Origin: Gammaproteobacteria bacterium | GTDB lineage: Bacteria; Pseudomonadota; Gammaproteobacteria; Pseudomonadales; Azotimanducaceae | DNA length: 56,180 nucleotides | Direction: 5' to 3' | NCBI GenBank assembly: GCA_026705345.1 | Contig: JAPPAV010000144.1 | Span: 1 to 56,180, forward strand | Shown here: positions 580-30,108 of the stretch, in pieces | Layout of the letters: each line of letters opens with the position of its first letter | Numbering within the stretch: the first letter of the stretch is position 1 | Notes under the pieces: model-generated | Seen by the model: only the letters and a program-made list of their open reading frames with translations | Told to the model about the DNA's origin: nothing | Databases searched by the model: none | Translations under genes and position numbers: made by a program

Positions 580-715
580 CAATCAACCTCTCTCAGGAAG
601 CTGCGCCATGTCGCATGGCAGAGCTTATATGTTCGATAAATTACTGTTTTTGTTACTAATACAATAAACTCGGGACGATCCGAGTCGTGCGGGACCACAG
701 TGGAACGCGAGCGTA

Positions 716-737
716 TTGTTGTAACCATTTGTTGTAA
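716..737 (+). repeat. Tandem 9-mers, possible integrase arm sites
   Basis: TTGTTGTAA occurs twice with 4 bp between copies (716-724 and 729-737), in an AT-rich stretch between the attL core and the integrase. A related TGTTGTAA lies at 56011-56018, just inside the attR core. Tyrosine recombinases often bind such arm repeats. The assignment is an inference from position only. Confidence 0.3.
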
Positions 738-780
738 TCAAGGCGCCGGAGGTGTAGGATGGGTGCCTCTCCTCGACGAC

Positions 781-1932
781 ATGGAGGCAGCGCTGAAACT
801 CAACGCCAAGGCCATCCCGAACCTGCCTGCCGGCCGTCACGGCGACGGGCACGGACTCTATCTCATGGTGCAGAAGCGGGGCACGCGCTCGTGGACGCAG
901 GTGGTGCGCGTGGACGGCAGGCGCCTCGACCTGGGCCTGGGCGCATACCCGGACGTGACGCTGAAGGAGGCCCGCCGCATTGCGACGAGCAACCGCGCCC
1001 TCGCCAAGGGAGGCTTCGACCCGCGGCATGGGACGGGCGGCGCGCTGACGTTCGCCGAGGCCAACGACGAATACCTGCGCTGGAAGCGCTTTCCAGCGCC
1101 GGTGGCGAACAACCGGCTGTCGAACCAGCGCTACCGGTGGGACTACACGATGCGCAAGCACGTGCTTCCCCGGATAGGGACCGTGCCGGTGGCGGAGGTG
1201 ACCGTGGGGCAGGCGGCGGCCATCGCCTCGGCGATGATCGACACGCCCTCGGCGGCGAAGTTCGCTCTCTCTTGCATCGAGCGCGTCTGCCAGTGGGCGA
1301 TTGACAGTGGTCACCGGGAGATGGCGAACCCGGCGAGCGGGCCGAAGCGGCAGATCGACGTGCCGCCGCCGACCCACGCGAGGTTCCTGCCAGCGCAGGA
1401 GCTCGCCGGCGAGCTGCGCAAGCTGTACGCCTCGGGCTGCTCGGAGGCGGTGAAGCTGGCGGTGCGGTTCACGGCGCTGACGGCCAAGCGGCTGTGCGAG
1501 GTGCGGCGAGCGACGTGGACGGAGATCGACCTCGATGCGCGGACGTGGACGATCCCCGGACGACCGAACGCGAAGATCAAGGAGGATCACGTCGAGCCGC
1601 TGTCGGACGCCGCGATGCAGGTGCTGCATGGTGCGCTTGAACTGCCGCGGTCGCACGGCGTGGTCTTCACCAACCCGTCGTCGGGGGACGGCGTGATGCC
1701 GGACTCGACGATCCGGCGGGCGATGCGGCGGGCGGGCGTCGCGATGTCGCCGCACGGGTTCCGTTCGACGTTTCGGACTTGGGCGCAGGAGCGCGGCGAG
1801 AACTGGGAGGCTGCGGAGATCAGCCTGAGCCACCGCGTGGGAGGCTCGGTCGTTGCAAGCTATGCGCGCTCGAACATGCTGGAGATGCGCCGCGCACTGA
1901 TGGAACGGTACGCGGGAACGCTAGGGGTCTGA
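781..1932 (+). CDS. P4-type tyrosine recombinase (island integrase)
   Basis: Site-specific recombinase that would integrate and excise the island. The N-terminal third has the DUF4102-like arm-binding fold seen in P4 integrases (GDGHGLYLMV, then GLGAYPDVTLKEAR). The catalytic domain shows Arg237 in AKRLCEV, the HGFR box (His325, Arg328), His351 in LSHR and the nucleophile Tyr361 in SYARSN, counted from the ATG at 781. An in-frame GTG at 700 would add 27 residues, but the protein aligns naturally from MEAALKLNAKAIPNL, so I prefer 781. It sits next to attL, as expected of the enzyme for this element. All catalytic residues are present and the frame is intact. Confidence 0.9.
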   Translation: MEAALKLNAKAIPNLPAGRHGDGHGLYLMVQKRGTRSWTQVVRVDGRRLDLGLGAYPDVTLKEARRIATSNRALAKGGFDPRHGTGGALTFAEANDEYLRWKRFPAPVANNRLSNQRYRWDYTMRKHVLPRIGTVPVAEVTVGQAAAIASAMIDTPSAAKFALSCIERVCQWAIDSGHREMANPASGPKRQIDVPPPTHARFLPAQELAGELRKLYASGCSEAVKLAVRFTALTAKRLCEVRRATWTEIDLDARTWTIPGRPNAKIKEDHVEPLSDAAMQVLHGALELPRSHGVVFTNPSSGDGVMPDSTIRRAMRRAGVAMSPHGFRSTFRTWAQERGENWEAAEISLSHRVGGSVVASYARSNMLEMRRALMERYAGTLGV

Positions 1933-2929: not shown

Positions 2930-3960
2930 GGACGGGGCTGTCCGGTCGGTGCCGACGATCGCAGGGGGGTGCCGAACGGCGCGGCGTCAGCCGGCGGCCA
3001 CCCCGTCCGCCTCCGGCTTGAACGGACGACGGCAAGGGTGGTCCGGCGGCGGCTTCCAGACCGACCGCGAACGCTGCTCCGCCTTCGCGCGGTGCACCCG
3101 CTGCCGAACGCTCTTGCCGTCCTCCACCGGCGACGGATCCTCGCCCTCGCCGAGCAGCCGCACCGGAAGCTCCCGGCCGCCGCGCAGCACCGTCACCGCG
3201 CCGTCGAAGCCCTTGCACACCGTCACCGCCGCGATCAGCACGTCCCGCTGTCCCCGGGCCTTCAGCTCGTTCATCACCGCGAACCAGAACCGGGCCCCCT
3301 CCGTCTGCTCGATCCACAGCCCCAGAACCTCCTTGCGGCCGGCGCACGTCACGCCGATCCCCAGGTACACCGCCTTGTTCTTCACCAGGCCCTCGTCGCG
3401 CACCTTCGCCCGGATCGCGTCGAAGTACACCACCGCGTAGACGTCCTCCAGCGGCCGCGACTGCCACGCCCGGATCTCGTCAACCTGTTCCGCAGGAACA
3501 GGCCACCGCGTCCGTGACCTTCGAGATCAGCTCCGCCGACACCGAGATGCCGTAGAGCTCCTCGACGTGGCCGCGGATCTCCCGCGTCGTCATGCCGCGG
3601 GCGTACATCGAGATCACCTTGTCGTCGAAGCCCGGCAGGCGCCGCGCGTACCGCTCCACCAGCCGCGGCTCGAAGTTCCCGTGCCGGTCGCGCGGCACCT
3701 CCAGATCCATCGATCCGGCGTCCGTCAGCACCCGCTTGCGGTTGTGGCCGTTGCGGTGGTTGCCCGCGTCCCGCTCCGACTCGCCCTCGAGATGGGCGTC
3801 CATCTCGGCGTCCAGCGCGCGCTCCGCGACCGCCTTCTTGAGATCGTCGATCAGCTCGCCGCTGCGGAATACCTCCGCCGCGTCCTGCCCGGCCAGCAGC
3901 TCGTCAAGCAGCTCCTCGCTGATCCGTCCCTCCCGTGGTGTTCGGTGTTGCCATATCGTC
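2930..3960 (-). pseudogene. IS256-family transposase, broken
   Basis: The segment near 3925-3500 encodes the N-terminal IS256 region (REGRISEELLDELLAGQDAA, GHVEELYGISVSAELISKVTDAV). The segment from about 3487 to 3200 encodes the core (VVYFDAIRAKVRDEG, VLGLWIEQTEGARFW, VMNELKARGQRD). Three lesions are visible. The ATG at about 3948 is out of frame with the body. Extra sequence near 3487-3505 adds a stop after TDAV. After AAVTVCKGF the conserved C-terminal third is replaced by unrelated sequence. The element is therefore inactive. Confidence 0.8.
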
Positions 3961-4114
3961 CTCCTTGACGGAGTCCATACTAACGGCTCACAAACACGCA
4001 ATTTCTGAGAGTCTCTCGTCTCCCGTAGACCCCGATTCCGCGACGCGTCCACGACCGTTTCCCGGTTGCGCCGTCGGCCGCCGCTAGACGCGTTCTTTGC
4101 CGAAGTCGTACTGG

Positions 4115-4411
4115 TCAAACATAGCCCGTGTCCTCCCAGGCTTCTAGCTCCCATAGGGAGCTGTCCGCAATCCCGTTGAAATGGCCCAATATGCGCACCT
4201 TCGTCACGAAGTACAAAGGCCAAACGTCGTCCTTCCCTTCGGCAGCCTTCATCACATCCTCGACAATGTCTTCTGTCGTGGTGTTTTGATGAGGCGCGAC
4301 CACGAGCCATACCCGTCCCTCGATGTATTCGACCATCTCCGGGAATCGGTCCTTGCTCAACAGCTTGCGCAGGGATGAGCGTTGGTCGCCGACACCCGAG
4401 TTCTCCCCCAT
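4115..4411 (-). CDS. Hypothetical protein, 98 aa
   Basis: Soluble acidic protein beginning MGENSGVGDQRSSLRKLLSKD and ending WELEAWEDTGYV. The composition is balanced (VWLVVAPHQNTTTEDIVEDVMK), which supports real coding. There are no cysteines, signal peptide or membrane segment, and I recognise no family. It stands alone between the IS256 relic and the protease gene. The 357 bp between them (4412-4768) show no gene or clear regulatory element. Confidence 0.5.
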   Translation of the reverse strand: MGENSGVGDQRSSLRKLLSKDRFPEMVEYIEGRVWLVVAPHQNTTTEDIVEDVMKAAEGKDDVWPLYFVTKVRILGHFNGIADSSLWELEAWEDTGYV

Positions 4412-4768: not shown

Positions 4769-5590
4769 TCACGCAACACGCAGGAACCCTGCCTCCTCCA
4801 TCCAAAAAGCGCCGAGGTTGAAGACGACGTGGCCGAGTACGCAGGATTCGATCCCGTGTTTCCTGGCGAGCCACCCCAAAGCGACACCGGCAGGGAAGAT
4901 CTGGACTAGCTTTACCCATTGCGGATCCAGCAGGCCCACGTGCCCAATCGACCACAGCGTTGCCGAGAGCAGGATCACCAGCCAATAGCGGTGATCCCAC
5001 CAACCAAGCACCCGGGCAAGGTAGTTCTGGATACCTAGGCGATACACTAGCTCCTCAGCCAGCGCCACGACCGACACGGCGAGCATTGCGACGACGACAT
5101 CCCAAGCCCGGCCGGGGGTCTCTCTGAACTCGCGTTTGGCGAGGTCGGTCACCTTCGGGTCGGTGGCTTCGAAGAGCAGAACAGTGTAGACGCTCCACGC
5201 CATGGCCAGCAGCAAGCCCAAGGACACCGGCGTCACAAGAGAACGCCGAATCGGTTGCCCCAGCAATCCAAGGTCCGGTCGCAGCAACGGGAAAGCGGAG
5301 ATACCAACGGCCACGCAGCAGGAGACACCTACCGCCGTGAACACGAACGTCCGTAGGATGTCGATCGGCAGTGCTACGACTAGGGACCATGTGGCATCCC
5401 CTGCAGCGAGCGCGACGGCCACCAGGGCGATGGCGTATGCGCGGACGACTATCCAAGCGAACCGGGAGCACCGCCGGATCTCGTTCCGCTTGGTGAACCA
5501 GTGGATGGCCACGGCGATCACCATCACGAACAAGGCGATCCCGTGGATTAATGCCAATGTGACAGTCATGGCGAAGAGTCGTTCAGGCAC
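4769..5590 (-). CDS. CPBP (CAAX/Abi) family intramembrane metalloprotease
   Basis: Integral membrane protein with about eight hydrophobic segments. The C-terminal half carries the CPBP signature: Glu179-Glu180 with Arg184 (AEELVYRLG), a His in the next helix (WSIGHVGLL) and an H-x3-N motif (GHVVFNLG). These residues coordinate metal in Abi/CAAX-type membrane proteases. Bacterial members process prenylated or peptide substrates, and many serve as bacteriocin immunity or maturation factors. The next intact coding locus to the right is the cysteine-rich peptide locus at 6958-11803, so a protective role is possible but unproven. I use the GTG at 5590; the ATG at 5569 is an alternative. Neither has a strong ribosome binding site. 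Confidence 0.85.
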   Translation of the reverse strand: MPERLFAMTVTLALIHGIALFVMVIAVAIHWFTKRNEIRRCSRFAWIVVRAYAIALVAVALAAGDATWSLVVALPIDILRTFVFTAVGVSCCVAVGISAFPLLRPDLGLLGQPIRRSLVTPVSLGLLLAMAWSVYTVLLFEATDPKVTDLAKREFRETPGRAWDVVVAMLAVSVVALAEELVYRLGIQNYLARVLGWWDHRYWLVILLSATLWSIGHVGLLDPQWVKLVQIFPAGVALGWLARKHGIESCVLGHVVFNLGAFWMEEAGFLRVA

Positions 5591-6957: not shown

Positions 6958-7341
6958 ATGAAGCACTTGACGCAATCCCCTATGGGCATGGTCGCAGCTC
7001 TCGCCGTTGTGGTCGGTGTCACCGTCGCATATACCGGGGGCGAACGCGCATCCGCGCCAACCAAGGACGCTGCCACGGCCTTTGAGGTGACCAACGCAGA
7101 CGTCAGCAACGCAACAACCACGACGCAACACGTTTTGAACAGCGTCTTGGGCAAAGGTCCAGTTCCTGTGTGGTCCCCCGCTTTAGGAAGCCTGCCTTGG
7201 GAAATGCCCTGGGTATCACCCACTCCCCCGGGGTTCACATGCACTGCAACCGGCTGCGACACAGACCCGAGTGTGTGCTGGGCCATAGGGCAAACTTGCA
7301 CCAGCGGCTGCATCCAGAACGCTTGCTACTACGCCTGGTAA
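6958..7341 (+). CDS. Secreted six-cysteine peptide precursor, 127 aa
   Basis: The start is fixed by a strong AGGAGG site at 6946-6951. Residues 1 to about 25 are a Sec-type signal or anchor (MKHLTQSPMGMVAALAVVV). Next come a Thr/Ala-rich spacer and a Pro/Trp-rich segment (LPWEMPWVSPTPPG). The last 34 residues hold all six cysteines in the pattern C-x4-C-x6-C-x6-C-x3-C-x4-C, ending CYYAW. I recognise no family. The layout (leader, linker, compact Cys-rich tail) is that of an exported disulfide-rich peptide, perhaps a bacteriocin or toxin. The gene for a DsbC isomerase lies two genes downstream on the same strand, which supports disulfide maturation. The product's activity is unknown. Confidence 0.75.
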   Translation: MKHLTQSPMGMVAALAVVVGVTVAYTGGERASAPTKDAATAFEVTNADVSNATTTTQHVLNSVLGKGPVPVWSPALGSLPWEMPWVSPTPPGFTCTATGCDTDPSVCWAIGQTCTSGCIQNACYYAW

Positions 7342-7422
7342 CGGCGGCCAACTCTGGCGGCACAACATAATGCGGTCCGCTGGAGTTAGGTTGGAATCTA
7401 GCTAAGGCTAGGCCCTGCATGT

Positions 7423-7458
7423 CCGACTCTCGACTGTCGTGAGGCAGCCGAGAGTCGG
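7423..7458 (+). terminator. Perfect 10-bp stem between peptide and ABC genes
   Basis: CCGACTCTCG (7423-7432) and CGAGAGTCGG (7449-7458) form a perfect stem with a 16-nt loop. No U-tract follows, so it is better read as an attenuator or mRNA-stabilising hairpin that could allow more peptide mRNA than downstream mRNA. Confidence 0.45.
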
Positions 7459-7473
7459 CAATACCCTACAAAG

Positions 7474-10400
7474 GTGAAGACAGCCACAAGCCACGCCGGC
7501 GACCATGACGCGAGACATCGCAAAGACCGCGCAAAGGTGGCGCTCGACCAACTATTCGCAGTAGCGCTCGCCGAGTGGCGGCAACTATGGCGATCGCGGG
7601 GGACGTGGCTTGTGGCGGTGCTCACCGTGGCGGCCGGGCTGGGTGCGTACCTGTATCTCGCTTACCTGCATGCCACGTTCTCATTCTTCTCATCGACTTC
7701 GGGCTTCATCAGTCCTCGGTTCCTGATTCACCACTTCGGCGCGGTTCCGCTGTGCATACTGATGCTCGGCGTCGCGTTGCTCGGCTTTGACAGTCGTCGG
7801 CGGGATGTCCGGGACCAGTTTGCAGAAGTACTGGATTGTCGACCGCTGTCCAACCTCGCGATCATCGTCGGGCGCTTCTTTGGGACGTTCATTGCCGCAT
7901 GGCTCATCGTGGCGGTGACGCTAGGGTTGTTGCAAGTGACCGGCATTGCGGCGCCGGCCCTCGGCTTGCCGTTCGGGGAAGCCATCGAACCTGCCTCGCT
8001 CGCTACCTTCCTCCTCGTGGACAGCTCAGTTGCCTTGGTGGTGTGGTGCACTGTGGTCCAGTTGGCCACGTTTGCGCTGAGATCGCCGACGGCCGTTTTG
8101 TTGGCGACATTCGCGCTGGTCGCAGGACTGTATTGGCTCCTGCATCACACGCCGGTCCATCTGATCCCAGCGATTTCTCCGCTACCGAGCTTCGGCGTTT
8201 TTGCTTCTGACATCCTGCCAACGTTTGCCAGCGGTTTGGTCCTCTTGCAGCGTGGGCTCTTCCTCCTGATCGCGGTCGCCTGCATTGTGGCCGCTAGCGC
8301 GCTCTTTCCCCGATTCGACGACACCCGCGGCGTGGCCGCTGCTCTGATCGGAACAACGGCAATTCTGGCGGCGACTGCCGGCCTCTCGGCCTTCGCCTAC
8401 CGTTCATTCGATCCGATGGCACTGCGCGAACAGTGGCGGCTCGCCCACAGCACCCATGTCGATGCGCCTCGGGCCGACGTTGAGTGGATAACGGGACGCG
8501 TCCACGTAGCACCTGACGTGAGCCTGACGCTCGACCTCGAGATTGGGCTCACCGCGCCGACAAATCGTCCGGTCGATACGCTCGTCTTCACGCTGAATCC
8601 CGCAATGGCGGTCCACGAACTGCGCGTCGCGGGAGCGGCCGCAAGATTCCGGCAGCAGTCGGGCCTGCTCTTCGTCCAGCTGCGGCAGCCGATTCCAACG
8701 GCAGGGAGATTCACTCTGGCCATCGTGGCGAAAGGCGTGCCCAATCCGGGTTTTGCCTACCTCGATGCGCACTCAGAACCTAGGAAGGACTCTTGGGCCG
8801 ATGGTCAGCTGTCATTTCTCGGCACCGAAGCCTCGTTATTCGACAAGGCGTATGTCGCGCTCATGCCAGGGACGGGTTGGCTCCCGCTGCCTGGGCCCCA
8901 CCTCACCGCAGGCGCAAAGCAGCAACCGCGCGATTTTTTCGTAGTCGACCTGACGGTTGAAGTACCGACGGGCTGGGAGGTCGCTGGGCCGGGTCGCACT
9001 CATCGCGTGCCGGGCGAGGGACGTCGCTTCCGCTTCCAGCCCGGTGCCCCACTGCACGAAGTTGCCATCCTGGCAGCACCGTTCGAGCGCTACGAGGTCG
9101 AGCAGGGCGGTGTGACGTTCGCGCTGCTAATGCACAGGGACCACGTTGCGAACGCCTCGCTTTTCTCCGGTGCATCCGGGCGGATTAGCGAGCACCTTCA
9201 GAGGTTGCTGGATCAGGCAAGGGCACTGGGCATCCCGTACCCGTACAACGGTCTGACCGTCGCCGAAGTACCTGCCAAGCTCAGGGTTTTCCGCGGAGGG
9301 TGGTCGATGGGCACTGCCCAGAGCTTTCCCGGGTTGCTGCTGATGCGGGAGCATGGCTTTCCTACTGCGCGCTTCGACCGGCACTTCGCGTCGTTCGAGG
9401 CGGCGGATGCCTCCGACGCCGACCTCAGCTTGTGGAAGGTAAGCGCCGCCGAGGGGTATTTCCGCCGCGACCAAACTGGGGGGAACATCCTTGCGTCTGC
9501 GGCGGACCAGTTGATTGGTTTCACCACTGCGCCCCACGGTGAACACGCTCTAAGTACGCAATTCTTGATCGAACGGCTAGCGGCGGGATTGCTCAAGTCC
9601 GATCAGACGCTCTTCTCAGCGCACGCGTATCGCCAATCCCCCCTCGCCGCTGCTGGCCCCAACATCGCAGCCATGGGCCTGCCCGAAATCGCGTCGCCCT
9701 TGGCGGCGCTGGCGCTACCAAACGTCCACCGGATCCTCGGTGCCGCCCGCTCCGATCTTGACAGCGCAGCGGTTTGGACCTTGGCCGCAGACGCAACGTG
9801 GGCTGAACTCCAGCAAAGCGGCTCGCCGCACCTCGCCTTGGCGACCATGTCAGCCAAAAGCCGCGTCACCGCATTGGCCCTGATAGACAGCCTTGGCATC
9901 GACGCTGTGGGTCAGATCCTTGCCGAGCTGCGGCGGCGCTACGCCGATCGAACTTATTCGTACGCCGACCTCGTCGCCTTGGCCGAAGAGCTTGGAATGG
10001 CGCTCGGGCCCGTCGCCGAACGGCTGCACGGTCGCTCACTGCCGGGCTTTCACGCTTCCTCGGCAAGTGTGACTCGGCTGGACCAACGTGAACAACGGAC
10101 GCCCGCGTATCAGATCCGCCTGGACGTACGCAACGGCGAAGCAGCCCCGGGCATCATCCGCGTCGACGTCGGCACGGATGCCGGCCGCGGCGCCTTCCTG
10201 GACTGGGAATCCACCGCGCCCATCGCCGTGCCAGGCCGCTCGTCGGTCGAAGTTGGGATTCTCAGTTCCAAGCCCCCGCTCGATCTTTGGCTGGTAAGCT
10301 ACCTTTCGCTCAACGGAATGGACCTGCGCATCCCCCTGTCGTCGATGCAGTATCCCGATGCAGGGGACGCCGCGCCGTTTGCTGGCGGACGCCCCAGCGC

Positions 10401-11037
10401 ATGGCGCCCCATCGAGACAGGAATAGTCGTCGACGACTTGGATTCAGGTTTCGCCATACGCCAGCTTGGAACTGTCCTGCGCGGACTGGAGGGATTGCGC
10501 AGCTTCCTCAACCCGACCGGCGTTGGAGATCACCAAGATCTGCAGATTCCTGTCTATCGCCAGATATCGGCCCATCCAACCGCCAGTCCACCAAGCGCGT
10601 TTCTCGGAGCAAACTGGTCTCGTCAAGAGGTCGGCGGCGCTTGGGGCAAGTACAGACGAACCGTCGCGCGGTGTGTTGCCGGCGACGGCACCAAAGAGGT
10701 TACGTTCAGCGCCGACCTGCCCGCCGCCGGCCGGTGGCGGCTGGAGTATCACCTGCCGGACCTCACCCAGAGACCTCGATTCAAAACCTTCGCCGACACG
10801 CGGGAGGCATTCGGCACTTGGCACGGCGGGCGGCTCGGCATCCAACACTTGTCTTTGGTTGCGGGCGGCAAAGCTACCCCGCTAGAGCTCGATGCCGGCC
10901 GAGCCGGGGCCGGCTGGCACATCATTGGCACGTTCGCGCTGGAGCCGGGCGAAGTCGAGCTTGTGGTCTCCAACCGCACATCGGGGCAAACCGTGATCGC
11001 GGACGCCGTCCGATGGAGCCTAGTCGATGATCGATGA
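7474..11037 (+). CDS. Giant ABC-2 permease fused to M1-like and golvesin-like domains
   Basis: 1187 residues. Residues about 30-330 hold several membrane segments typical of ABC-2 permeases. From about 350 to 880 is an extracytoplasmic region resembling the non-catalytic parts of M1 aminopeptidases, as in known ABC permease/M1 fusions, but no HExxH zinc motif is visible, so it is probably not a peptidase. The last 140 residues (YRRTV, WHIIGTFALEPGEVELVVSN, VIADAVRWSL) match the golvesin C-terminal-like fold used for surface or polysaccharide binding. No ATPase gene is adjacent. It starts with GTG at 7474 with a weak ribosome site. It ends 28 bp before the DsbC gene, consistent with one operon. 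It may export the upstream peptide or protect against it. Confidence 0.7.
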   Translation: MKTATSHAGDHDARHRKDRAKVALDQLFAVALAEWRQLWRSRGTWLVAVLTVAAGLGAYLYLAYLHATFSFFSSTSGFISPRFLIHHFGAVPLCILMLGVALLGFDSRRRDVRDQFAEVLDCRPLSNLAIIVGRFFGTFIAAWLIVAVTLGLLQVTGIAAPALGLPFGEAIEPASLATFLLVDSSVALVVWCTVVQLATFALRSPTAVLLATFALVAGLYWLLHHTPVHLIPAISPLPSFGVFASDILPTFASGLVLLQRGLFLLIAVACIVAASALFPRFDDTRGVAAALIGTTAILAATAGLSAFAYRSFDPMALREQWRLAHSTHVDAPRADVEWITGRVHVAPDVSLTLDLEIGLTAPTNRPVDTLVFTLNPAMAVHELRVAGAAARFRQQSGLLFVQLRQPIPTAGRFTLAIVAKGVPNPGFAYLDAHSEPRKDSWADGQLSFLGTEASLFDKAYVALMPGTGWLPLPGPHLTAGAKQQPRDFFVVDLTVEVPTGWEVAGPGRTHRVPGEGRRFRFQPGAPLHEVAILAAPFERYEVEQGGVTFALLMHRDHVANASLFSGASGRISEHLQRLLDQARALGIPYPYNGLTVAEVPAKLRVFRGGWSMGTAQSFPGLLLMREHGFPTARFDRHFASFEAADASDADLSLWKVSAAEGYFRRDQTGGNILASAADQLIGFTTAPHGEHALSTQFLIERLAAGLLKSDQTLFSAHAYRQSPLAAAGPNIAAMGLPEIASPLAALALPNVHRILGAARSDLDSAAVWTLAADATWAELQQSGSPHLALATMSAKSRVTALALIDSLGIDAVGQILAELRRRYADRTYSYADLVALAEELGMALGPVAERLHGRSLPGFHASSASVTRLDQREQRTPAYQIRLDVRNGEAAPGIIRVDVGTDAGRGAFLDWESTAPIAVPGRSSVEVGILSSKPPLDLWLVSYLSLNGMDLRIPLSSMQYPDAGDAAPFAGGRPSAWRPIETGIVVDDLDSGFAIRQLGTVLRGLEGLRSFLNPTGVGDHQDLQIPVYRQISAHPTASPPSAFLGANWSRQEVGGAWGKYRRTVARCVAGDGTKEVTFSADLPAAGRWRLEYHLPDLTQRPRFKTFADTREAFGTWHGGRLGIQHLSLVAGGKATPLELDAGRAGAGWHIIGTFALEPGEVELVVSNRTSGQTVIADAVRWSLVDDR

Positions 11038-11065
11038 TTGTCCGGCAAAGGAAAGGAGGACGCGC

Positions 11066-11803
11066 ATGCGCACAATGAAGATCCCAACCGTGACTATCGC
11101 CACTCCCCTTGTCTGTGTTGGGCTGACGATGAGTGCAAGGAGCGATGAGGCAATCATCCGAGAGAGCTTGGAGCGGGCGGCACCAGAGATTCAGGTGACC
11201 GGAATCTCGCCCTCACCGGTAGAGGGAGTCTTCGAGGTACGGATCCAAGACAACCAAACACGCCTCTATGTGACCGGTGACGGTCGCCATTTCGTTGCGG
11301 GCGACCTCTATGCCGTGCTCGGCACCGGGGTGAACAACCTCAGCGAGGAAGGACGCAAGGCGCAGCGGCGGGCTGCCTTGGGCGGAATCCCCGCGGAGGA
11401 TTTGATTGCATTCGCCCCAAATCAAAAGTTGGAGGTCGTGCTGTACGTCTTCACCGATGTCGATTGCCCATATTGTCGGATTCTCCACCAAGATGTAGCA
11501 AGACTTGGCGACTATGGGGTCGAAGTACGGTACTTGGCCTATCCCCGCTCAGGACCCGGCACGAGTACATACGACAAGATGGTGTCCGCGTGGTGTTCCC
11601 GCAGTCCCAGCATAGCGATTGCCGCCCTATTCGAGGATAAGAAGATCGATAGCGTCAGCTGCCTGAGTCCCGTTGCCGCGCATTTCGAACTCGCCAAGTC
11701 TCTCGGCATCGGCGGAACTCCGACCCTCTTCACCGAGGACGGCACTGAGATTTCGGGTTATTATCCGGTGGAGGAACTCATCGCAATGCTAGGGTTGGAG
11801 TAG
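11066..11803 (+). CDS. dsbC: Thiol:disulfide interchange protein DsbC-like
   Basis: Periplasmic disulfide isomerase of 245 residues. The start at 11066 has a strong GGAGGA site. Residues 1 to about 25 are a signal peptide. An N-terminal DsbC dimerisation region (EVRIQDNQTRLYVTGDGRHFVAG) precedes a thioredoxin domain with the active site Cys134-Pro-Tyr-Cys137 and the cis-Pro loop GIGGTPTLF. An additional Cys pair (AWCSR, SVSCLS) matches the structural disulfide of DsbC. Being downstream of a six-cysteine exported peptide and of a membrane transport-like protein, it is likely dedicated to folding that peptide, although housekeeping-type activity cannot be excluded. Confidence 0.9.
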   Translation: MRTMKIPTVTIATPLVCVGLTMSARSDEAIIRESLERAAPEIQVTGISPSPVEGVFEVRIQDNQTRLYVTGDGRHFVAGDLYAVLGTGVNNLSEEGRKAQRRAALGGIPAEDLIAFAPNQKLEVVLYVFTDVDCPYCRILHQDVARLGDYGVEVRYLAYPRSGPGTSTYDKMVSAWCSRSPSIAIAALFEDKKIDSVSCLSPVAAHFELAKSLGIGGTPTLFTEDGTEISGYYPVEELIAMLGLE

Positions 11804-11857: not shown

Positions 11858-12350
11858 CTACTCTAGGCTCTGCGTCAGGCCGAGCGCTTTTAAGCGGCGC
11901 ACGTCGGCCTTGATTTCGCTGTTTCCATGCCGACAGCGGCGCCAAGTCGATCGCTCGCGTCGCCGGACAAGCTGAACGCAGGTCGCGGAACCGTTGGAAC
12001 GACTGCGGTTGTTGGCGTCAAGAATCGCGGGGTCCGTGGCGTAGCGGGCGGCCTCCAGATCGCGCGCCAGAGTCTCCCTAGCCTCGTCGCGGCGGGGGGT
12101 CGCCTCCGCCTCCGCCCGCACGGCGGCTTCCACGGCACCGGGCCCAACGACCTCTAGGACGGCGGCTTCGATGGGGTCGTCGACGCGAAGACCACCGAAG
12201 GCGATGCTGCGGGGCTCGCCGTTGTCCATCGAGCCCCGCTGACAGGCGTAGCGGGGGATGTTGTACTTGGCGCCCGCGTAGCGAAGCGTCAACTTGCGCC
12301 CGCAACGCCGGCACCGCACCAGGCCGGCAAGCAGCGCATGCCCGTGCCTA
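11858..12350 (-). pseudogene. Large serine recombinase, C-terminal remnant
   Basis: The minus strand encodes the recombinase zinc ribbon (GLVRCRRCGRKLTLRY, then YACQRG) followed by the coiled segment typical of large serine recombinases (AAVRAEAEATPRRDEARETLARDLEAARYA). The N-terminal resolvase domain with the catalytic Ser is absent, and the frame continues upstream into unrelated IS1380 sequence. It is a non-functional relic of another integrated element. Confidence 0.75.
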
Positions 12351-12479
12351 CAAAGGTGAGGCAGGCCAAGGGAGCATTTCCGGTGAGGCAATGCGAACAC
12401 GCGTACCCGCCGCAGGGCGGCGTGGGACTCGTGGGGATCGTCGAGGCCGCCGTCCTGGGCAGCGGGGCGCGGGGCTCGA

Positions 12480-13505
12480 GGCGCATCATCGCCTCGTACA
12501 GCCAGTCGAGGTGGAAGTTGGTCTTGGCGAACCGCACGCACAGCCGGCGCGCCGTGCGCACCATGTACGCCGCCGTTCGCATCACGTGCCGGATAACCGG
12601 CCGCAGACCGTGCTTGCGCGTCAGCTTCGGCAGCGCCGTGAACTGCACCGCCCGCAGCAGCACCTGGGCGATCCAGCCGAGGGCGTAGAACGCCTGGTTC
12701 GCCCGGTAGCCGCGGCACGGCGGGTGGTGCAGGTCCAGATCCCTGAGCGGCCCCTTGGAGGCGTTCTCCTGGCCCTGCTTGCCCCGGTGCCGGTGCACCA
12801 GCTCGTCGCGAGCTGGCAGGTGCCGCGCGAGACCAGGATCACCGTGTGGTGCGGAACCAGAAGGCCCTGGCCGTTTTCCGCGCGCCGCCGCACCACCACG
12901 TTGTTCCGCGACAATCAAGGTGAGAACGACTTCTCATCCTGATTGACGCGCTACAACCACGTAGCGCTGCTCCGCCTCCCAGCCGCCCGGGCGGTGCGTG
13001 GCGAAGATCGCCTCCTCCTCCCCGCCGATGTCCGTCCAAGGCCGTGTCGGGGAGCCCTGCGAGCTGTTGCAGAACCGGCCGCCGCCACGTGTCGTTGGTC
13101 AGGCTGACCGGTAGTCCCAGCCGCGCGCGGCGCACAGCCGGACCAGGTCCCCCTTGTAGTAGGCGTTGTCCGCCCGCCGCCACGCCGGCGTCCCGGCCGG
13201 CACCATCCCGGCGGTCCAGTCCAGCAGCGTCCGCCAGTTCAGCGTCACCCGCCCGCCGTCGGGACACAGCTGGCCCGCCGGCAAAGCCGGCCCAGGAACA
13301 CCGCGTGCAGCCAATAGCCGCGCCGGCCGTCGTAGTTGCGCTGCGCCCGCTGGAACAGCTCGCCGTCCACCTCGATCCCCGTGGCGTCGATGAACAGCGG
13401 CACGTAGCCCCTCGTCTCCACCTCGTGCGCCGCGATCAGCGGCAGCGACCCGCTCGGCGAACCGCCGCGCCACCTCGCAGAGCCCCTTTGACGTCGCGCG
13501 TGTGT
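12480..13505 (-). pseudogene. IS1380-family transposase, broken
   Basis: The middle region on the minus strand (about 13390-13100) reads WRTLLDWTAGMVPAGTPAWR and ADNAYYKGDLVRLCAARGWDY, the catalytic-core signature of IS1380 transposases. The C-terminal region (about 12690-12480) reads QAFYALGWIAQVLLRAVQF and KTNFHLDWLYEAMMRLE. The two parts lie in different frames, and a 55-bp palindromic insertion at 12901-12955 separates them. Several other shifts occur, so the copy is inactive. Confidence 0.75.
12901..12955. mobile_element. Palindromic miniature element, copy 1
   Basis: About 55 bp forming an imperfect palindrome: the arm TGTTCCGCGACAATCA pairs with an arm whose complement is TGTAGCGCGTCAATCA. 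It interrupts the IS1380 transposase frame. ACCACG flanks it on both sides (12895-12900 and 12956-12961), consistent with a 6-bp target duplication. Related copies are at 33050-33100 and 35176-35229. Confidence 0.65.
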
Positions 13506-13554
13506 AGCGCGTCAATTAGGCTGAGCACGCTCTCGGGAATTGTCAAGGGCATCA

Positions 13555-13790
13555 TGTCGGACAATGTAGGATTCGGGCGTCGGCGTTCGCCCCCCGCGCG
13601 TGTAGAGGCCGATGGATCGCGTTCAAGGAGTCGTAAGAGCCTTATGAGGCCAGCGGACGGTTTGACATGGCCGGCTTCGTTTTGGCGAACACACGCGGAC
13701 CACCACCAAGAACACTGCCAGCTTCGGCCTGGGTGAGGCCAAGTGTCCTCCGGATTTGGCGGATCCCCCGCCACGAGGAGGCCATCACGC
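13555..13790 (-). pseudogene. XRE-family antitoxin (MqsA/HigA-like), broken
   Basis: The minus strand encodes IRQIRRTLGLTQAEAGSVLG with GGPRVFAKT, the helix-turn-helix block of MqsA/HigA-type antitoxins, then after a frame change AGHVKPSAGLIRLLRLLERD, the usual end of that domain. The two halves are out of frame, and no toxin gene is recognisable nearby. The 450 bp to the right (13800-14250) show no gene. Confidence 0.65.
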
Positions 13791-14251
13791 TACAGATCCG
13801 AACGACCGGGAGCCGTCCGCCTTCGACACGCGGGCATGAACGATCAGCATGGTTGTTCCTCAAACGCTCGTTTTCCGCGACGTCGCCATCCGACCCCGCC
13901 ACATAGCAATTCTACGTACCGCAACCCGTCCGAAGACAACGCTCCACAGACCGTGGACCGCATCCTCGAAACGCTTCAAGGCGTGTGCAGCCCGGAGCGG
14001 TCAATCACCGCAACGACTGTTCCCAACTAAGGAACAGGTGCGCAAGCTGGCTTTTACCGCTGGCCTGGGCGATGATGACGATGTCACGCCGTCGGCAATT
14101 GAGCGGAGTGACGAGGCGGATTCCCAGCAACAATTGACGAGCCATCCGACACGACTTCCGTTCGTACCACACTTCCGCACGGCGGTCGGATGAGCCCCAG
14201 GTAGTTCCTTGGAGCCGATGACAGCATCTCATCCAGCACGCGGGGTTAAGT

Positions 14252-16006
14252 ATGGCTGAGAAAGAAACCAGCAAGCTCAACGCGCTTGCCGACCATACCT
14301 GGCGCGCGATTCGACGCGCCCTGCTGCAAACGCTCCACGTTGTCGTCTATCCGTTCCACGCGGTCGCGCATCTCGTGCTCGTCCACTTGGTTCCCCTCTT
14401 TGCCATTGTCGTCGTGCTCGTCGCAGCCCCCGCTCTCGTGTTTCTCGCTTGGTTGGGTGCGCATCAAAACCTCCCACAACAGGCCGAGTCGGTTGCAGTG
14501 ATCGTCGAGTTCACTACGCTGATCGGCATTCTTGGGATCATCCCGATGCTGGTGGGAAAATTGTGGGGGCGCCTAGCCGAAACGGGCAAGCAGACACTCG
14601 CCGAACTACGTGCGCTCATCGCCGGCCCATGGGTACCGAACTTCCCGCTGCCTGAGAGCTTCGCCGACACTGCCGAACTGCGCCGGGAACGGGCACGCGC
14701 AGCCGGTGTTGGGCTACGTGGGGCAGCCCGACTGTTCCTGGCTCTCGCCCTCGTGGCCTTAGTAGCCATCTTGGTCCGGGCGACCGTGCTCCCGCGCGAT
14801 GGTGTCGATCAGCAACTGGAGGAACTTGCGGCACGGCTTGATGCCTTCGGCGATCCCCGCGCGCCGCTCTTCATAGCAGTTTCGGATCTGCGCCTAGCGT
14901 TACAGGGCACGCCGCCCGTATCGGCAGAGGTGACCGCGAGGCTTGACTCCCTCCGGGGCCGCGTCTCCACGCTGATCGCCAACGCCGGTGGGGACGCGGA
15001 GGGTGATGCCGAGCATCCGCTGATAGCCCCCATCAAAGTGCATCTAGCTAACCTTGAGAACGCTTTGCGAAGAGACACGCCCCAGGCCGACCACCTAGAC
15101 GCCGCCCTGACGGCCATGCTCATCGAAGTATCGAAGGCGTCCATTGTCACGTCAAGGGTGCAAGCCGACGGGTCGATCAACACGATCTTGATGCACATCC
15201 TCGTGGAACTGCAGAACCTCCGTAGTGCAATCCAGGCACGGCAACAGGGTGAGCCCCCGACTCTGCGAACCCCTGAGCAACCACCGGCCTCGCAGGCCAA
15301 CGGCGCTCCCGATCACGACCTCCCGCCGGAACCCGACGAGCCCGCGACACAAAGCGCGACGGGTCCGGGAGAGACCGACAGTCCAGGAGTTGATCGCGGC
15401 GATCGTGTCATGCCCGAGATCATCGCTTTCCCAGACGGTGTGGTGTTCTCTGTCACTCATCTTGTCGACGCGAAGCTCGACGCGCAAAGAACTGGCATCT
15501 GCCTGAACAAAACACAGGTGGATTGGCTGTCCGCGTTCAAACAAGCGATCGCCGAATGCTCGGCGGACAAGCACGAGCCGCTTGAACTCGAAGTGCTCGG
15601 GTACTCGAGTATCGCGCCCGCCTTGGGACCCGATGGGACCGATGCGGAAACCGTGCGATGGAACCGCAGGATTGCCGATGAACGAGGCGCAGTAGTCGCG
15701 AAGTTCCTGCTCCTAGAGGAGGGTCAGGATTTCTCCCCGGAAGCGTGCGCGAAGGGGATGAACAAGGACATGACCCCCTACGTCGACGCACGTGTCAAGG
15801 CAACCACCAACTACAGGGTCTCATACACCCCGTGGTCCCGGCGCGACAATGGCGCTTCGTATCCCGTCCCCGTCGACGACGGTGACTACCCCGGAGTGCG
15901 AAGGTTCGCGAGCGAGTTGCTGAACCGAAGCGCCCACATCGTGATCAAGAACGACGTGTGCTCCATCGGTAGTACGCGTACGCTGGCAACCAACGGCAGC
16001 GCGTAG
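14252..16006 (+). CDS. Membrane protein with OmpA-like C-terminal domain
   Basis: 584 residues. Hydrophobic segments lie at about 25-70 and 85-105, with another at about 155-180 (LFLALALVALVAILVRATVL). A helical region (about 185-320) and a Pro/Glu-rich linker follow. The C-terminal region (about 400-500) reads LELEVLGYSSIAP and NRRIADERGAVVAKFLL, resembling the OmpA/MotB peptidoglycan-binding fold, where a conserved Asn and an RA..V..FL helix occur. The match is partial, so the peptidoglycan role is inferred. It is followed at 207 bp and 57 bp by the DUF3892-like and lipase genes on the same strand, suggesting an envelope-associated three-gene module. The specific function is unknown. Confidence 0.6.
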   Translation: MAEKETSKLNALADHTWRAIRRALLQTLHVVVYPFHAVAHLVLVHLVPLFAIVVVLVAAPALVFLAWLGAHQNLPQQAESVAVIVEFTTLIGILGIIPMLVGKLWGRLAETGKQTLAELRALIAGPWVPNFPLPESFADTAELRRERARAAGVGLRGAARLFLALALVALVAILVRATVLPRDGVDQQLEELAARLDAFGDPRAPLFIAVSDLRLALQGTPPVSAEVTARLDSLRGRVSTLIANAGGDAEGDAEHPLIAPIKVHLANLENALRRDTPQADHLDAALTAMLIEVSKASIVTSRVQADGSINTILMHILVELQNLRSAIQARQQGEPPTLRTPEQPPASQANGAPDHDLPPEPDEPATQSATGPGETDSPGVDRGDRVMPEIIAFPDGVVFSVTHLVDAKLDAQRTGICLNKTQVDWLSAFKQAIAECSADKHEPLELEVLGYSSIAPALGPDGTDAETVRWNRRIADERGAVVAKFLLLEEGQDFSPEACAKGMNKDMTPYVDARVKATTNYRVSYTPWSRRDNGASYPVPVDDGDYPGVRRFASELLNRSAHIVIKNDVCSIGSTRTLATNGSA

Positions 16007-16213
16007 CCACGCCTCCAACAACCGCGCCCCACTCCTCGGCGTGCCGAAGGCCGCGCTGGCATGGTGCCCACGTCGTCACTCACGATCGGCTAAACTAAGC
16101 CCGTACGCAACCGGCCCGCCGCAGAACGAGAACAGCAACAACCGGACACCGGGATCTTCCACGCAAAATACCGATTCGCGTAACATAAGGCGCTCACAAA
16201 AGGCGACGGAACG

Positions 16214-16987
16214 ATGCAAGAACTCACAAGGCTACTGGTGCCGATGTGCATCCTGGCGGCCGCCCCCGTTTTCGCCCACTTCGACCACGAAGACCCCCAG
16301 CCGCACGCTCTCCAATCAGAGTTCGTTGAGCTTCGCACCGAGATCCGAGACGCCCGCGTCCGGGTCAACGATTCCATCCGCCGCGTCGAAGAGCAGGTCG
16401 GGGAGAACGCCGTTGCCGTTGCCGCCATCGCTTCCCTTTCAGACGCCGTCGCCGCCCTCGACGACGCCGTCACGGAACTCGATGCCAAGTGCTGCCCCGA
16501 CCCGGACGACGATGCGTGGCTTGAACTGCTCGTGGGTGGCGGGGCCGGTGCACTCTTCGGCATCGGAGGCGTCGCCCTGTTCGGGCGCAGACTGTTGCGA
16601 CTTCCCAAGACGCCACCCGCGCCCGCACCCGTCCCCGCGACATCGCCGCGACCGACAAGCGCCCCCAAGGCCCCAACCGAGTCCGAGAAGTCGGAGGAAG
16701 AAGGCGATGCCGACAGCGAGCCCGCGCTGCGCACCGTCACCGCCTCCAGGCGCGACGACGACGGCATCATCCTGGCGATCTGCAATCATGACGAGCCGTG
16801 GCGCGAACGGACCGTCGTAGAGGCCATCGCCGACATGAAGAGCGGCATCGTCTACGAGTCGCTGGGTCCGCAATCCGGGCGCAGGGCCAGAGTGCGTTAC
16901 GTGGAGAGACGGGGCGCCAGACCCTATCTCACGACCGAAGGAGACGACGCGGAAGACAACAACCTGGACAACCTGCCGCCTTGCTAG
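16214..16987 (+). CDS. Coiled-coil membrane protein with DUF3892-like tail
   Basis: 257 residues: signal peptide to about residue 21 (AAAPVFAHFD), a helical heptad-rich region at about 33-92 (VELRTEIRDARVRVNDSIRR), a CC pair, a transmembrane segment at about 102-127 and a Pro-rich linker. The tail at about 180-257 (ICNHDEPW, VVEAIADMKSGIVY, PYLTTEGDDAEDNNLDNLPP) has the layout of DUF3892, a small domain of unknown function. The coiled coil would be periplasmic and the DUF3892-like tail cytoplasmic, suggesting signalling across the membrane. The protein encoded at 22666-23385 has the same overall plan. Confidence 0.65.
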   Translation: MQELTRLLVPMCILAAAPVFAHFDHEDPQPHALQSEFVELRTEIRDARVRVNDSIRRVEEQVGENAVAVAAIASLSDAVAALDDAVTELDAKCCPDPDDDAWLELLVGGGAGALFGIGGVALFGRRLLRLPKTPPAPAPVPATSPRPTSAPKAPTESEKSEEEGDADSEPALRTVTASRRDDDGIILAICNHDEPWRERTVVEAIADMKSGIVYESLGPQSGRRARVRYVERRGARPYLTTEGDDAEDNNLDNLPPC

Positions 16988-17044
16988 GCGCGCTCCACCC
17001 CCACCGCTGAAGATCCCACACTTGACTATCGGCCGGAGACATCC

Positions 17045-18112
17045 TTGCTAGAGAAACTCGAAAACGAACAGGCCCAGCGCATCGTCGGGCTCGACGTCCC
17101 GAGCTACCGCCAGGCGTATAGCGACCGCATGGCCTGGCTCATGGCCTACATGGCCGAGCTCGCCTACCTGAAGTACGACGCGCCGAGCGCCGACGGCGAA
17201 CTTGCCGTCGAGCTACTCACCCGAGCCCTAAAACGCACGAAACACGGCAGCGTCGACAAGGTCATCGCTGCGGTGCGTCGGCGCTACGACTACGATCACG
17301 ACGAAGCACGGCGCGAGCTCAGCGAATCCCTGGACCAGATCGGCTGGGCGCTTCTTGACACCTTCAGCACCAACGCCACGCAGGGATTCGTCGCCTACGG
17401 CGACCTGTTCGCCGCGCTCGCGTTCCGAGGGACCGAGGCCGACCGCATCGGCGACATCAAGGCCGACGCGAAGGCGGTCCAGACCACCTGTCCCACCGGA
17501 GGCAGGGTGCACTCCGGATTCAAGGACCAGTACGACGACGTCGCGTCGCGGGTCGAGCAACTGCTGGACCGAGACGAAGTCAAGGGCAAGCCGTTGTTCA
17601 TCGCCGGCCATAGCCTCGGCGGCGCCGTCGCCACCATCGCGGCCCGGCGCCTGACCGCCGACCACCGTGTCGCGGCCTGCTACACCTACGGCTCGCCTCG
17701 TGTGGGCACGGAGCATTGGGTTGGGCAGATCAAGACCCCGATCTACCGCGTCGTAAACTCCGCGGACCCCGTCCCCATGGTGCCCTTGAGCGGCACGGCG
17801 ACGTTCTGGCTGGCGAAGGCTCTCCGAGCTGTCGGTCGACTGGTCCCTTGGGTAGGCGCCGCGCTCGTCTGGTTCGGCGACTGGATCGAGCGGACCATGT
17901 CCTGCTACGCCCACGCCGGGAACATGCGCTTTCTCACCAACTCGAAGGACGGCGATCTTTCGCAGGTCGAACTTCTCTACACCGTCGGTTGGGGACGACG
18001 ATTCCGCGGTGCACTGACAGGCATCCGCCCCGCCGCGAAGGTCCTCGGCGACCACGGCATCGCGCTTTACCGAAGGAAGATGATGAGCGTGGCCCAGCGG
18101 CGGAACCCGTAA
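17045..18112 (+). CDS. Class 3 lipase family protein
   Basis: 355-residue alpha/beta hydrolase of the lipase_3 family. The nucleophile elbow is GHSLGG with Ser190, the acid is Asp241 in NSADPVPMV, and the base is His337 in GDHGIALY. Oxyanion-side sequence AFRGTEADRIGDIKAD and the YGSPRVG block are typical. There is no signal peptide. A hydrophobic stretch around 258-280 (FWLAKALRAVGRLVPW) is an insertion that may contact membrane. It starts with TTG at 17045 behind a GGAG site. It follows the two membrane-protein genes closely, so it may act on phospholipids as the effector of that module. The catalytic triad is visible; the role is inference. Confidence 0.8.
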   Translation: MLEKLENEQAQRIVGLDVPSYRQAYSDRMAWLMAYMAELAYLKYDAPSADGELAVELLTRALKRTKHGSVDKVIAAVRRRYDYDHDEARRELSESLDQIGWALLDTFSTNATQGFVAYGDLFAALAFRGTEADRIGDIKADAKAVQTTCPTGGRVHSGFKDQYDDVASRVEQLLDRDEVKGKPLFIAGHSLGGAVATIAARRLTADHRVAACYTYGSPRVGTEHWVGQIKTPIYRVVNSADPVPMVPLSGTATFWLAKALRAVGRLVPWVGAALVWFGDWIERTMSCYAHAGNMRFLTNSKDGDLSQVELLYTVGWGRRFRGALTGIRPAAKVLGDHGIALYRRKMMSVAQRRNP

Positions 18113-29835: not shown

Positions 29836-30108
29836 ATGACAAGGAAGATTCTCAAAGGCGTCGTTTGGGGCGCGTTCATGGCCTTCGCCGTCATCCAGAC
29901 GCAGGCTTACATCAGTCCCGACGACTACAACGCGCAGATGTGCCACGGCGAATGCGAGCGCGGATACGAAGACTGCATGGCCGAGCGGCGCAAGGGCTGG
30001 AAGCAGTGGTGGGACTTCGGTCACGGATGGCTCGAATGCCTCGGGGATCGGGAGGACTGCATCGACCACTGCCTCAGCAACTACCCGCCGAACGTGCCTC
30101 TCACCTAG
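29836..30108 (+). CDS. Small secreted protein with paired Cys helices
   Basis: 90 residues with a signal peptide (MTRKILKGVVWGAFMAFAVI). The mature protein has six cysteines in mirror symmetry: C-x3-C-x6-C (MCHGECERGYEDC) and C-x6-C-x3-C (ECLGDREDCIDHC), separated by a Trp-rich loop (KGWKQWWDFGHGW). Two antiparallel helices stapled by disulfides, as in alpha-hairpinin folds, are the natural reading. That is inference from spacing. GAGGAA precedes the start. It is likely made together with the 29289 protein; a DsbC is encoded elsewhere on the island. Confidence 0.6.
   Translation: MTRKILKGVVWGAFMAFAVIQTQAYISPDDYNAQMCHGECERGYEDCMAERRKGWKQWWDFGHGWLECLGDREDCIDHCLSNYPPNVPLT

Follow-up and report, generated by a model that had tools for sequence, protein, structure and literature searches.

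A recurrent gene set for a predicted exported six-cysteine peptide, a DsbC-type isomerase and a permease-like protein with a pseudo-M1 domain in the Azotimanducaceae

Several bacteriocins are described with a dedicated thiol-disulfide oxidoreductase, namely pediocin PA-1 with PedC, sublancin 168 with BdbA, and thermophilin 13 with BlpGst, and the potency of pediocin is increased by PedC (PMC4919988, in extract). By analogy, this pediocin-PedC type of bacteriocin would be the nearest described idea for the locus analyzed here. In E. coli, small disulfide-rich proteins are obtained in better soluble yield with DsbC as a cytoplasmic fusion partner; in the view of the authors of that work, the oxidation takes place ex vivo (PMC3668227, in extract), so it would lend weak support to periplasmic folding by DsbC in the present case. 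Among the matches listed in the open-licence PMC literature, no bacterial operon pairing DsbC with a Cys-rich peptide was found.

The peptide, permease and DsbC genes

The analysis was performed on a stretch of 56,180 nucleotides (contig JAPPAV010000144.1, assembly GCA_026705345.1), hereafter called the window. The cassette and its neighbors are arranged as follows.

700..1932, + strand, phage-type tyrosine integrase, a sign of a genomic island
2987-4310, − strand, Mutator-family transposase in two ORFs (Pfam)
4769..5590, − strand, CAAX/Rce1-like membrane protease (Pfam/NCBIfam)
6958..7341, + strand, ORF of a predicted exported precursor peptide, 127 aa, with Sec-type signal, PxWS linker, and six-Cys tail
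7420..7460, + strand, RNA hairpin between the peptide and permease genes (−29.4 kcal/mol, z −3.43, no U-run after it)
7474..11037, + strand, 1187-aa membrane protein with N-terminal helices, M1-aminopeptidase-fold domain, and golvesin-like C-terminus (ORF, Pfam, structure model)
11027..11803, + strand, DsbC-type disulfide isomerase with DsbC_N and Thioredoxin_2 domains and a CPYC motif (Pfam)
11858..12718, − strand, recombinase with a Zn-ribbon domain, downstream of the cassette (Pfam)

Like the PedC-type bacteriocins, the cassette unites a small Cys peptide, predicted to be exported, with a thioredoxin-fold disulfide enzyme in one gene set, and it differs from them in its two-domain DsbC, Sec-like signal, six cysteines, and pseudo-M1 permease. 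Pediocin and sublancin use a C39-type exporter; Pfam gave no peptidase C39 match in the permease of the window or that of locus L137.

The first-pass annotation had described a well-initiated gene for an exported peptide with a six-Cys tail, and this description held. The ORF starts at ATG 6958 with an AGGAGG Shine-Dalgarno sequence immediately 5′, the N-terminus is hydrophobic, and the six cysteines lie within residues 95–123 at a spacing of 4-6-6-3-4; the Sec-like signals of this and the related peptides were judged by eye and with a crude hydrophobicity filter, and export is thus a prediction. Homologues were found in G197, G198, and G200, and the identity of the window peptide to the L035 and L036 peptides is 20–34%. 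All six cysteines are invariant in the 11/11 rows of the peptide alignment; a trimmed alignment of 12 peptides has five, not six, invariant cysteine columns. The exact spacing C-x4-C-x6-C-x6-C-x3-C-x4-C, proposed earlier as a search pattern, is absent from all other 11 peptides. What the peptides have in common is six cysteines in order, with loops 1 and 4 both short. The tails are otherwise very variable, with at most three per genome.

Conservation of the peptide frame, on which the earlier proposal had been made to depend, was borne out by four close peptide pairs, which gave dN/dS point estimates of 0.43–0.75 and have 6, 6, 7, and 6 cysteines in common; this suggests loose selection on the frame. 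The peptides of the window and L036, a fifth and distant pair, gave 0.53, and only 3/6 Cys matched in their pairwise alignment. No Pfam or NCBIfam model covers any of the 10 peptides scanned (the set without those of L131, L141, and L158), and none of the 10 matched a metal-binding family. A weak match to a Brevibacillus bacteriocin family spans residues 1–45, which is the signal-sequence end, and was dismissed. The structure model of the peptide (pLDDT 51) was too poor for use. None of 200 shuffles was as stable as the hairpin at 7420..7460, which is possibly a processing or attenuation element and might set unequal expression of the peptide and permease genes.

The 1187-aa protein, which may start at GTG 7474 (its start codon is uncertain), had been read as ABC-2, M1-like, and golvesin-like. 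The last two parts stand: the structure model places an M1-aminopeptidase fold over residues ~327–896, and the Golvesin_C match is above the Pfam cut-off, barely so at 33.4 vs 31.6 bits. For the ABC-2 part the sequence offers weak support, with long predicted helices over residues 10–327, no Pfam ABC-2 match, and a comparison to GldF (E 0.16) far under the cut-off. Compared with M1 aminopeptidases (6iff and its kin), the protein has the fold in the model, lacks the HExxH zinc site, and carries membrane helices and a golvesin-like end in the same chain. HExxH was found at the expected M1 position in 0/26 permease homologues, the sole HExxH among them sitting elsewhere (residue 302 of L034), so the M1 domain is probably a binding module and not a protease.

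Paralogous permeases from loci that lack the peptide have the same architecture and 34–39% identity to the window copy (20 rows). They differ in that 10/18 of these loci have, directly upstream of the permease, an ORF with Walker A and ABC-signature motifs (one neighborhood checked by Pfam, the others by motifs), and in having no six-Cys peptide and no linked DsbC. The L046 permease is accompanied by HlyD and AcrB genes, and together with the ATPase-like ORFs this hints at an export role for the protein family. The adjacency of paralogues to such ORFs also lends the ABC-2 label some support. No ORF with Walker A and ABC signature lies beside the permeases of the window, L035, or L036, so these copies would need an ATPase in trans or work otherwise. 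The L046 cluster also encodes a 1597-aa protein (12858-17648) whose single chain combines an ABC ATPase domain with an AcrB-type RND domain.

The presence of DsbC after the permease gene, as annotated in the first pass, was confirmed. The ORF overlaps the permease stop, and its true start is possibly the in-frame ATG 11066. It has the N-terminal dimerisation domain (PF10411, 59.6 bits, cut-off 25) and a thioredoxin domain with CxxC (PF13098, 67.1 bits, cut-off 27), the two features that define DsbC. The NCBIfam DsbC equivalog score of 148 against a cut-off of 215 indicates that the enzyme is divergent, and since a second DsbC is encoded elsewhere in the same genome (C8), that of the cassette is an extra copy. 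In the DsbC tree, which has long branches, a single clade of the 13 linked rows (fragments among them) was rejected (AU p 0.0013); this suggests that DsbC was recruited more than once.

In the permease tree, which contains some long branches, the 20 remaining copies group together to the exclusion of those with linked DsbC (support 82/95, not starred), and a single clade of the seven peptide-linked permease rows was not rejected (p 0.43). The integrases, the recombinase, and the Mutator transposase ORFs nearby make the cassette plausibly mobile. An integrase also lies beside L036, and L133 has an integrase fragment under the Pfam cut-off; an integrase as a mark of the cassette was rejected, as the non-peptide locus L038 has one too. 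The CAAX protease at 4769-5590 is a possible immunity gene candidate, and nothing found ties it to the cassette. In G199, the fragment L135 12465-12750 is 92% DNA-identical to window positions 10002-10289 in the permease and has a DsbC fragment at a distance of ~2.5 kb and a lipoprotein-like ORF with 8 Cys at <2 kb; it is perhaps a relic of a window-like cassette.

Recurrence of the gene set and linkage of peptide and DsbC

Permease homologues occur in 56/206 genomes of the family, often several in each (the best few per genome were scored). We retrieved 20 permease neighborhoods, giving 25 permease copies with the window. Only 3/25 have DsbC nearby, namely those of the window, G198 (L035), and G197 (L036), and exactly these three carry a predicted exported peptide with six C-terminal Cys; the other 22 have no linked DsbC and no such peptide within 3 kb. 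The window and L035 are arranged as peptide-permease-DsbC, and L036 as peptide-DsbC-permease. In L035 the gap between peptide and permease is 32 bases, and DsbC is split over two frames.

Further loci were found by profiles of three peptides and of two DsbCs, so the search for the three genes together in other genomes, which had been suggested from the window, succeeded at more than L035 and L036. G185:C120 and G194:C43 are peptide-DsbC-permease sets, G199:C22 contains three peptide loci, and G200:C93 is a decayed relative; in G185:C7, G185:C143, and G187:C22, peptides occur with DsbC among different neighbors. The 11-row peptide alignment run against the 206 genomes gave 13 loci at E ≤ 1e-5, among which G194:C76 was new. 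They are spread over 8 genomes from two genera, with peptide loci in 6/16 genomes of the window's genus.

DsbC, whole or partial, lies on the same stretch in 12/13 peptide loci, a count to be read with the bias that L131-L143 were mostly chosen for extra DsbC genes; two loci, G200:C93 (then shown to hold a DsbC stretch) and G194:C76, were found by peptide profiles alone. The thirteenth locus is G194:C76, in which the peptide gene immediately precedes a permease gene that is truncated where the contig stops. Contig G194:C25 opens with a permease end followed by DsbC, and the two contigs likely belong to one locus; their ends have no clear overlap, the longest common stretch being 11 bases. Among the partial DsbCs, L131 and L134 retain the thioredoxin part only, and L136 has two stretches. 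The L131 cassette appears decayed, and part of its permease and the DsbC thioredoxin domain occupy one open frame (8397-10220, G200). In L134, the match to DsbC overlaps that to the permease in another frame. In L138 (G200:C158), which has DsbC pieces and a permease, the ~500 bases up to the end of the contig encode no such peptide; the DsbCs of L140, L142, and L143 likewise have no such peptide with them.

The permease is present in 8/13 peptide loci and is therefore less tied to the peptide than DsbC. Of the five loci without this permease, three have another protein of 245–269 aa and two have FtsX-like permeases. In these two (L139 4654-7424 and L141 5153-7915), the six-Cys peptide and DsbC adjoin two FtsX-type permeases and no M1-like permease, the assignment resting on Pfam for L141 and on ORF likeness for L139.

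Outside the family sample, peptide profile A4 matched 2/390 genomes of the order, both of the window's family, and 1/369 of the class, the window's own; the best 12–13 candidates per genome were scored in these samples, and divergent tails may escape. The permease query matched 3/155 genomes of the order sample, all within the family. Single-sequence contig scans with the peptide and with the permease matched no relative. Several weak candidates were set aside: a G057 peptide match in the first search of the 206 genomes has stop codons inside, and one in G110 (E 0.009) has an internal stop. Peptide profile A1 matched 28/206 genomes at E ≤ 0.1, of which four (G197, G198, G000, and G200) were kept; in the other 24 the best match had E > 0.002, many with stops.

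To set this linkage against chance, 613 kb of 36 loci were passed through a strict filter that selects six-Cys ORFs with export features, which yielded 14 ORFs, 12 of them at a DsbC match (distance 104–3782 bp). These twelve include L135 10532, a lipoprotein-like ORF by a DsbC fragment that is outside the count of 13 loci; conversely, the decayed L131 copy is counted in the 13 loci and fails the filter. The remaining two ORFs lie in the contig-cut locus L158 and at window 29836-30108, 18 kb from DsbC. The latter (+ strand) is a 90-aa ORF, predicted to be exported, with six Cys in CxxxC-type pairs and a weak TGF_beta Pfam match (E 0.0015) under the cut-off. The same filter found 0 ORFs in 97 kb around 28 DsbC genes across the family at ~1.5 kb per side. 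As this reach is too short for window-like layouts, a second control took in longer flanking sequence, 230 kb in all, for 20 further DsbC genes from the two genera with peptide loci, 15/20 of them having ≥4 kb to either side; it too gave 0.

Proposed role and competing readings

A periplasmic six-Cys peptide can mis-pair on oxidation and then needs isomerisation, and DsbC is the enzyme that carries this out. We favor the reading, at a probability of about 0.6, that the cassette yields a Sec-exported, DsbC-folded disulfide-rich peptide that most likely works extracellularly against competing bacteria. From its signal sequence, the precursor would leave the cytoplasm via Sec. In the periplasm, its six cysteines would be oxidized, after which the DsbC of the operon would rearrange the disulfides into their native pairing, a step proposed because the linkage of peptide and DsbC is near-invariable. 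The tail would be released as a compact three-disulfide peptide. The ABC-2-like permease, with its M1 domain lacking the zinc site, may bind the peptide and pass it on or protect the producer, and this is a weaker part of the proposal. Extracellular action on competing bacteria is considered most likely because the peptide is variable, multi-copy, patchy, and in places near integrases; the role of a toxin or bacteriocin is itself a guess. The disulfide-matured, bacteriocin-like system of the first-pass annotation therefore stands in part: co-occurrence gives good support to an isomerase dedicated to an exported, Cys-rich peptide, and the exact Cys spacing and a fixed tie to the permease did not hold.

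The peptides can also be compared with knottins. Knottins (inhibitor cystine knots) have six Cys with loop ranges of 3–7, 3–8, 0–7, 1–4, and 4–13, and their knotted disulfides are I-IV, II-V, and III-VI. The likeness consists in six ordered Cys; taking the last six, all five loop ranges fit in 7/12 peptides, and loops 1 and 4 fit in 12/12. One peptide has a weak Pfam match to CarbpepA_inh, a carboxypeptidase inhibitor that is a knottin (E 0.018, 15.2 bits vs a cut-off of 25). The peptides scanned differ from established knottins in having no sequence match over the cut-off. It is a tentative idea that these are a bacterial knottin-type family, that is, hypervariable exported cystine-knot mini-proteins with their own DsbC and often with a pseudo-M1 permease as peptide receptor or deliverer.

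The peptide could instead be a signal or an effector directed at eukaryotes, made by the same folding route. Disulfide-rich scaffolds are used in eukaryotic signaling and inhibition, the tails are variable, and no immunity gene was identified, all of which fit this reading; we regard it as unlikely. Somewhat more doubtful is a structural or metal-binding Cys protein of the cell surface or periplasm that DsbC merely folds and that is never released. The cassette shows no release protease, the M1 domain being without HExxH, as such a protein would have it; yet the tails are very variable with up to three per genome, and the 10 scanned peptides matched no metal-binding family. A chance neighborhood, with a peptide ORF that is spurious or unrelated to DsbC, is very improbable: the shortness of the ORF and an identity of only 20–34% between the window peptide and its L035 and L036 counterparts would speak for it, but the recurrence of the gene set, the invariant Cys, the dN/dS values, and the strict filter with its empty controls largely contradict it.

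In summary, variable relatives found nearly always beside DsbC suggest that a family of secreted peptides folded through disulfides has so far gone undescribed. Should this be confirmed, the cassette would represent a natural Gram-negative folding route for three-disulfide mini-proteins and a source of new peptide scaffolds, and it would provide a test of what pseudo-peptidase permeases do.
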